Shown: one piece after another, positions 59,038-59,849 of the stretch
How positions within the stretch are numbered: position 1 is the stretch's first letter
Layout of the letters: each line of letters starts with the position of its first letter
DNA from: Marivirga harenae
Lineage (GTDB): Bacteria > Bacteroidota > Bacteroidia > Cytophagales > Cyclobacteriaceae
Length of the DNA: 64,000 bases
Assembly (NCBI RefSeq): GCF_030534335.1
Contig: NZ_CP130565.1
Coordinates: 1,633,501 to 1,697,500, forward strand
Direction: 5' to 3'
Program-made: the position numbers and the translations under genes
Notes under the pieces: generated by a model
Told to the model about the DNA's origin: nothing
Database searches by the model: none
Seen by the model: the letters and a program-made list of their open reading frames with translations, nothing else

Positions 59038-59796
59038 ATGGACTTATTATTCTTAGCAGATGTCATTGACATCAAATCGGATGATCCGGTAGCATTTACC
59101 TTCTTTACAGGGTATATGGCAATGTTCGCAGCTTCAGTCTTTTTCTTCTTTGAAAGACAACAAGTTGATGGAAAGTGGAAAACTTCACTTTTAGTGTCTG
59201 GTTTAATTACCATGATCGCGGCAGTTCATTATTATTATATGCGTGATTACTACGCAGCCACGGGTATGAACCCAACAGTTCTTCGTTATATTGACTGGAC
59301 TTTAACAGTTCCATTGATGTGTGTGGAGTTTTACCTATTGTTAAGACCTGCAGGTGCAAAACAAAGCTTTATGTGGAAACTAATCGCAGCTTCAGTAGTG
59401 ATGCTAGTTGCAGGATACATTGGCGAAGCCTTTACTGATGGAACAATGTTCCACTCTGTGCTATGGGGTGTTATATCTACATTAGGGTACATTTATATCT
59501 TGTATTCAGCATGGGCAGGAGAAGCAGCTCAATTGGCGAAAGCTAGCGGAAACGAAGCGGTACAAAAAGGTATTAAAGCACTAGCGTGGTTTGTATTAGT
59601 AGGTTGGGCAATTTACCCAATCGGTTACATGGCTATGCCAGGCGGATGGTTAGGTCAAGATGGCTTAGGGTTATTGCAACCTTCTAGCATGGATTTAATT
59701 TACAATATTGGTGATGCTATTAACAAAATCGGATTCGGTTTAGTAGTATATGGAATTGCCATGAGCGAAACTAAAAGGGCTAAAGCAACAGCTTAA
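59038..59796 (+). CDS. Green-absorbing proteorhodopsin, light-driven proton pump
   Basis: A 252-residue protein with seven helices. The proton-pump motif D-T-E is present: acceptor D86, T90 and donor E97 in R-Y-I-D-W-T-L-T-V-P-L-M-C-V-E. H64 partners the acceptor, R83 and D226 complete the complex, and K230 (A-I-N-K-I-G-F-G) binds retinal. The spectral-tuning residue is M94, which predicts green absorption. G144 in helix E (L-W-G-V-I-S-T) aligns with the xanthorhodopsin antenna glycine. No carotene dioxygenase (blh) or crt gene is adjacent, so retinal must come from elsewhere. Confidence 0.95.
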   Translation: MDLLFLADVIDIKSDDPVAFTFFTGYMAMFAASVFFFFERQQVDGKWKTSLLVSGLITMIAAVHYYYMRDYYAATGMNPTVLRYIDWTLTVPLMCVEFYLLLRPAGAKQSFMWKLIAASVVMLVAGYIGEAFTDGTMFHSVLWGVISTLGYIYILYSAWAGEAAQLAKASGNEAVQKGIKALAWFVLVGWAIYPIGYMAMPGGWLGQDGLGLLQPSSMDLIYNIGDAINKIGFGLVVYGIAMSETKRAKATA

Positions 59797-59849
59797 TCAT
59801 TTTTTAGTTGAAAATTAGTTATGAAAGGGGTCATTTATGATCCCTTTTT

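Follow-up and report, generated by a model that had tools for sequence, protein, structure and literature searches.

Carotenoid sites in microbial rhodopsins are described by a small number of residues. According to the accessible text of PMC12308411, glycine is the primary criterion for such a site and tyrosine an additional one. The same text compares two positions of TM6 (208 and 209 in Kin4B8 numbering), which are polar in proteins that bind 3-hydroxy carotenoids (Ser-Tyr in Kin4B8, Thr-Asp in KR1 and Thr-Glu in EinA29G6) and apolar in users of ketocarotenoids (Met-Ala in xanthorhodopsin, XR, and Met-Leu in Gloeobacter rhodopsin, GR). In Kin4B8, the S208A substitution brought zeaxanthin binding down to 2% of the wild-type level, and in the Y209F mutant energy transfer was about 18% instead of about 40%. 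For GR, the accessible part of PMC9151804 lists the double mutant T179G/T182G, but not S181G, among the mutants with strongly reduced binding. In the title of Fujiwara et al. (2025), the term "photocycle-accelerating pigments" is applied to the carotenoids of rhodopsins from marine Bacteroidota.

The window analysed here is a whole stretch of 64,000 nucleotides from Marivirga harenae (contig NZ_CP130565.1, positions 1,633,501 to 1,697,500) and carries a proteorhodopsin gene (Table 1). The best explanation of the data, to which we assign a probability of roughly 0.6, is that the product, a member of the Bacteroidota proteorhodopsin group, absorbs green light to drive outward proton pumping, and that a carotenoid of the host most likely occupies the groove at Gly144, as in NM-R1. 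A search of the open-licence literature, from which absence cannot be proven, returned no paper on this protein and no spectrum or binding assay of it.

The proteorhodopsin gene and its relatives

The reading frame, its coordinates and its strand proved to be exactly those of the initial annotation, and D86, T90, M94 and E97 are all where it had placed them. The protein is the sole match to PF01036 (Bac_rhodopsin) at E ≤ 0.001 in the genome of 4,373,458 bases; this match, Lys230 and fold matches to proteorhodopsins provide it with both the Schiff-base lysine and the fold of the family.

Table 1. Features of the proteorhodopsin gene in window coordinates
Feature	Position	Strand	Basis
Proteorhodopsin CDS, 252 aa	59038..59796	+	complete ORF; PF01036 E 1.2e-44; AlphaFold mean pLDDT 88.1
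D86, T90, E97 proton-pump motif with M94 (green-type position)	59293..59328	+	aligned with NM-R1, GPR, BPR and XR
Gly144 codon, fenestration position (XR Gly156; Kin4B8 Gly153 per the accessible text of PMC12308411)	59467..59469	+	alignment
Thr148 codon (Gly+4; Thr also in XR; Kin4B8 Thr157 and GR Thr182 by spacing alone)	59479..59481	+	
Tyr197 codon (XR Tyr207, Kin4B8 Tyr204), second published criterion	59626..59628	+	alignment
Pro201-Gly202 codons, where Kin4B8 has the polar TM6 pair Ser208/Tyr209	59638..59643	+	alignment
Lys230 codon, retinal Schiff-base lysine	59725..59727	+	aligned to a Lys in each of the four reference chains
Terminator-like hairpin and T tail, directly 3' of the proteorhodopsin gene	59823..59848	+	

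The gene looks monocistronic, since its two nearest neighbours are both on the minus strand and a terminator-like hairpin lies downstream. Two terminator-like sites were counted around it against a mean of 0.5 in shuffled sequences, the second of them inside the coding sequence, and promoter-like sites nearby were at the chance level (5 against a mean of 5.2). The flanking genes are unrelated: on one side lie those for a deoxynucleoside kinase and a protein of the AlaDH/PNT type, on the other those for DUF2461 and DnaJ-TPR proteins.

The joint alignment places D86, T90, E97 and K230 in the same columns as their counterparts in all four reference chains (NM-R1, GPR, BPR and XR), and position 94 is occupied by M in NM-R1, by L in both GPR and XR, and by Q in BPR. 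It also agrees with the initial annotation in setting G144, within L-W-G-V-I-S-T, at the position of XR Gly156, where glycine replaces the Phe or Trp of the green and blue proteobacterial proteorhodopsins; this column holds Gly in 3ddl and NM-R1, Phe in GPR (8cqc) and Trp in BPR (4jq6). We take BR Trp138 and GPR Phe152 to be the numbers of this position in those two proteins. The XR residues L154-W155-G156 and Y207 were counted from residue 117 in the alignment of 3ddl with a third rhodopsin, L052. The motif, M94 and the alignment thereby support the earlier prediction of a DTE proton pump of the green type that carries a small residue at its fenestration.

The protein thus has the glycine of fenestrated rhodopsins at XR 156/Kin4B8 153 and the tyrosine at XR 207/Kin4B8 204. 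The latter is weak evidence and a poor discriminator, because GPR and BPR carry this tyrosine too. At Kin4B8 208/209, where polar residues characterize the 3-hydroxy-xanthophyll type, Pro201-Gly202 is found. Ser147, Thr148 and Pro194-Ile195 occur at the spacing of GR Ser181, Thr182 and Pro226-Ile227, with GR compared by spacing alone (accessible part of PMC9151804), whereas the counterpart of GR Thr179, residue 145, is Val here.

The top PDB sequence matches were 9jov and 9jou (E about 7e-79), the latter being, by its entry title, the zeaxanthin-bound light-driven proton pumping rhodopsin NM-R1, the sole zeaxanthin-bound proteorhodopsin structure among the matches. NM-R1 was compared through the 9jov chain, whose aligned stretch is identical to that of 9jou. 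It is identical at 133 of 237 aligned residues (56–57%) and has DTE, M, Gly and Tyr in common with our protein, but differs in having Thr-Pro in place of Pro-Gly at the TM6 pair, with Thr at its first position, and Gly in place of Thr at Gly+4.

A Foldseek search with the AlphaFold model (27 sequences) also gave 9jou as the top match (E 4.6e-17). In VIA-align, 9jou came third, with a Z of 30.1 and an rmsd of 1.6 across 230 residues, after two entries of PsFAR, a flotillin-associated rhodopsin (Z 31.1 and 30.7), which are just 37% identical; since these slightly outscore NM-R1, the fold alone shows no function. Zeaxanthin-bound Kin4B8 (8i2z) reached Z 25.9 and xanthorhodopsin Z 25.4.

Kin4B8 resembles the M. 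harenae protein in its fold, in the glycine and tyrosine, and in Thr at Gly+4, but its polar pair Ser208/Tyr209 is absent here. Xanthorhodopsin of Salinibacter (3ddl) shares L-W-G with Gly156, the Ser-Thr of helix E, Tyr207 and an apolar TM6 pair; it differs in its low identity (28% in the structural alignment), in its place outside the proteorhodopsin clade, and in its use of a 4-ketocarotenoid (accessible text of PMC12308411). KR1 of Dokdonia eikasta and EinA29G6, compared by the table published in the same source, are alike in belonging to the proteorhodopsin family, in the conserved Tyr and, for KR1, in Met at the 205 position, but differ in the polar TM6 pairs given above. The proteobacterial proteins 8cqc and 4jq6 share the family, the DTE motif and the TM6 Tyr, and are set apart by the bulky residue at the Gly144 position.

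In the tree, the protein falls into a clade with NM-R1 (support 0.957), which GPR and BPR join at 0.92, and 3ddl lies outside. An identity as a xanthorhodopsin is ruled out by this separation of the proteorhodopsin clade from 3ddl.

Carotenoid pathway genes

The initial annotation had raised the possibility of an added blue antenna, for which crt genes elsewhere in the genome are relevant; a carotenoid pathway, including a crtZ candidate, is indeed present. A match to blh (retinal) lies above its cut-off. The crt cluster contains a MerR-B12 regulator, an ORF of the ECF sigma type (recognised by eye), crtI, crtB, lytB/ispH and the crtZ candidate. The crtI gene scores above the NCBIfam cut-off for the bifunctional desaturase, and crtB is assigned by its PF00494 match and its place beside crtI, its NCBIfam matches being below the cut-off.

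The crtZ candidate has 159 residues with histidine boxes, as judged by eye. It gave no match in Pfam, even at a loose E-value, or in NCBIfam, and the PDB sequence search returned one unrelated match alone (E 0.29). With tblastn, it matched 109 plasmid records, none of which reached 60% identity; the homologue listed first (46.5%) is located in a crt cluster of Paracoccus, next to crtY and to the genes of phytoene synthase and desaturase.

A lycopene cyclase is indicated by PF05834 (E 4.3e-41) with scores below the NCBIfam cut-offs, and the search found no CarR-type cyclase. About 16 kb before the window, crtD and cruF adjoin at 1,615,142–1,617,282 (L141:7143–9283); crtD is above its NCBIfam cut-off, and cruF is assigned by PF04240 with NCBIfam matches below the cut-off.

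Judged from the genes alone, this set fits a 3-hydroxy carotenoid of the saproxanthin type. Saproxanthin would be expected as the product if crtA-OH is lacking. Lutein would be an unlikely native ligand, since the set suits a carotenoid that is monocyclic and 3-hydroxylated. Supplemented with crtA-OH and crtE, the same genes lead to myxol in Nonlabens spongiae (accessible part of PMC11855829).

Some further features of these loci should be mentioned. The crtD-cruF pair, of the type for a psi-end carotenoid, adjoins an ORF that encodes TPRs together with a kinase domain. The MerR-B12-binding regulator and the ECF-type sigma ORF (by eye) are situated directly upstream of crtI (L035:6126–7910). 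This regulator presumably resembles the light sensors CarH/LitR, which suggests that carotenoid synthesis is light-controlled. With regard to a possible use of 4-ketocarotenoids, a PF00487 profile search of the genome gave five matches, in ORFs of 358, 380, 361, 245 and 334 aa; we assume that this family includes the ketolase CrtW, and the ORF of 245 aa looks by eye like an acyl-CoA desaturase. A ketolase among the five is conceivable.

The glycine and the TM6 pair in Bacteroidota

Three sets of sequences were compared. The first came from 118 genomes, 44 of which had a rhodopsin match, and used 49 of 52 places, excluding a gene that a stop breaks into two pieces (G021) and one fragment of 69 positions (G052). 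The second consisted of the best 80 of at least 561 confirmed relatives and leans to close relatives. The third was a phylum sample of 395 genomes, 61 with a rhodopsin, in which 69 of 70 places were used, with five that recur from the first set, and one fragment below the cut-off (G374:C2) was dropped. The collected total is 193 sequences, or 183 after ten identical cores were merged; the trees keep the copies.

Glycine at the G144 position and tyrosine at the 197 position occur together in all 129 sequences made up of the 49 genome rhodopsins and the best 80 of at least 561 relatives. In the phylum sample, both residues are present in all 43 DTE sequences (24 M-type and 19 L-type), in all 17 NDQ sequences, and in one DTK and one DTQ; the L-type label is given by motif (xanthorhodopsin-like by motif) to sequences that are not monophyletic before rerooting and that split off at several nodes in the tree with the reference chains. 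In the other seven of this sample (four DTY, one DTA and two TSA), the fenestration residue is Phe, Trp or Tyr and TM6 has Trp.

Over all sets, the best 80 of at least 561 relatives included, Gly-Tyr is found in 186 of 193 sequences against seven with a bulky residue and Trp (176 of 183 against seven after core merging). The glycine is conserved far beyond chance. The rarity that the initial annotation had implied for it is therefore wrong, glycine being the rule among relatives, and the same counts rule out Gly144 as a distinctive feature of this protein. We are dealing with an ordinary proteorhodopsin of marine Bacteroidota whose glycine is shared by close relatives and has already been published; in one subtree of a 2026 paper, every Bacteroidota proteorhodopsin is reported to have this glycine.

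The seven sequences with a bulky fenestration residue are L143, L146, L176, L201, L205, L206 and L209. Glycine and the TM6 tyrosine also occur in all 24 of the NDQ (sodium-pump-type) rhodopsins collected (L003–L009, L142, L144, L145, L148, L149, L151, L152, L156–L160, L168, L177, L181, L185 and L188), and the usual carotenoid criterion would take in every one of them.

The picture at the TM6 pair is more varied. Pro-Gly is present in 96 of the 141 M-type DTE sequences (86 of 131 after core merging), and all 96 fall into one clade comprising 121 of the 141 M-type DTE tips (support 0.985–0.99); these counts include the best 80 of at least 561 relatives. Because the Pro-Gly sequences group together in this way in a supported clade, the pair looks like a derived and inherited state. 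The other 25 tips of the clade have Glu-Gly, Asp-Gly and Glu-Thr (seven each), Lys-Gly (two), and Ser-Gly and Pro-Thr (one each). NM-R1 is located outside, among the Thr types, and KR1 and EinA29G6 are unlikely to belong inside, since both have Thr. The open-licence literature yielded no tested carotenoid binder within the Pro-Gly clade.

Possible roles of the Gly144 groove

Pumping through residues of the Lys230/Asp86/Glu97 type is the established mechanism of the family. In the M. harenae protein, light would isomerise the retinal on Lys230, Asp86 would take the proton, Glu97 would reprotonate the Schiff base, and protons would exit the cell. Gly144 would leave open a lipid-facing groove beside the retinal ring, in which a host carotenoid with a 3-hydroxy-beta ring, of the saproxanthin or zeaxanthin type, would most likely be held as zeaxanthin is in NM-R1. 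Such a carotenoid would tune or speed the photocycle and stabilise the protein, and it may pass on some blue light. The observations on which this scheme builds are the pump motif, the Gly/Tyr residues, the modelled fold and the carotenoid genes; proton pumping and the identity, binding and effect of the carotenoid are what it proposes. Carotenoid binding as such is plausible, chiefly from the kinship with zeaxanthin-bound NM-R1 and further from Tyr197 and the pathway genes. Glycine together with tyrosine is no proof of a carotenoid role, because all 24 NDQ rhodopsins carry both. The Pro201-Gly202 pair also speaks against the scheme, given the effect of S208A on Kin4B8 and the Thr that NM-R1 retains at the first of these positions.

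A stronger claim is that the bound 3-hydroxy carotenoid passes blue light efficiently to the retinal and makes the protein an antenna pump, as zeaxanthin does for Kin4B8. Gly144, Tyr197 and the candidate hydroxylase in the genome are consistent with it, and in Kin4B8 3-hydroxylated xanthophylls are both bound and active in energy transfer, with similar observations on the flavobacterial proteorhodopsin KR1 (accessible text of PMC12308411). However, the Ser208/Tyr209 pair that is tied to both binding and energy transfer in Kin4B8 is Pro-Gly here, and the title of Fujiwara et al. (2025) speaks of photocycle acceleration. The antenna claim is weaker than that of carotenoid binding, and we consider it rather unlikely. 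The same Pro201-Gly202 pair, which gives no side-chain hydrogen bond, would also suit a plain proteorhodopsin with an inherited, lipid-filled groove and no carotenoid bound in the Pro-Gly subclade. The glycine is kept even in all 24 NDQ rhodopsins and may therefore persist without a ligand. On the other hand, none of the 131 distinct M-type DTE sequences (the best 80 of at least 561 relatives included) departs from Gly and Tyr, which hints at continued use, and apolar residues occupy both TM6 positions in XR and GR, which bind ketocarotenoids (accessible text of PMC12308411); an empty groove thus appears to us possible but doubtful.

It is also conceivable that the Pro-Gly subclade binds another carotenoid or binds it otherwise, for example a monocyclic pigment of the saproxanthin type through contacts beyond the polar TM6 pair. 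The well-supported subclade itself, with 96 Pro-Gly sequences among its 121 tips (again with the best 80 of at least 561 relatives), is in line with this, as are the genes crtD and cruF, which would provide a psi end group, and an apolar pair closer to that of XR and GR than to that of Kin4B8 and KR1 (accessible text of PMC12308411). Yet the saproxanthin-type product is deduced from the genes of this one genome, and we regard this explanation as unlikely. In an extended form, the Pro-Gly subclade would keep the Gly/Tyr gate open and may represent a third class of carotenoid site, fitting monocyclic xanthophylls such as saproxanthin via contacts unseen in Kin4B8, KR1 and NM-R1 and serving photocycle tuning more than light harvesting; this proposal is speculative and, in our estimation, improbable. 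The reading that we prefer is still a green-absorbing proton pump with a host carotenoid in the Gly144 groove.

As a single gene, this proteorhodopsin adds little, the glycine being widespread in the phylum and already described. It should be noted that, by the usual rule of glycine plus tyrosine, 186 of the 193 rhodopsins (the best 80 of at least 561 relatives included) would be expected to have a carotenoid, the NDQ sodium-pump types among them, and that the Pro-Gly members do not conform to the residue rule published for 3-hydroxy carotenoids. Which rule holds bears on how common carotenoid-assisted rhodopsin phototrophy is.

In one genome of the same family, the rhodopsin gene is interrupted by an internal TAA stop and falls into two pieces (G021:C1:4003442–4004157), which is likely due to a recent loss or a sequencing error.
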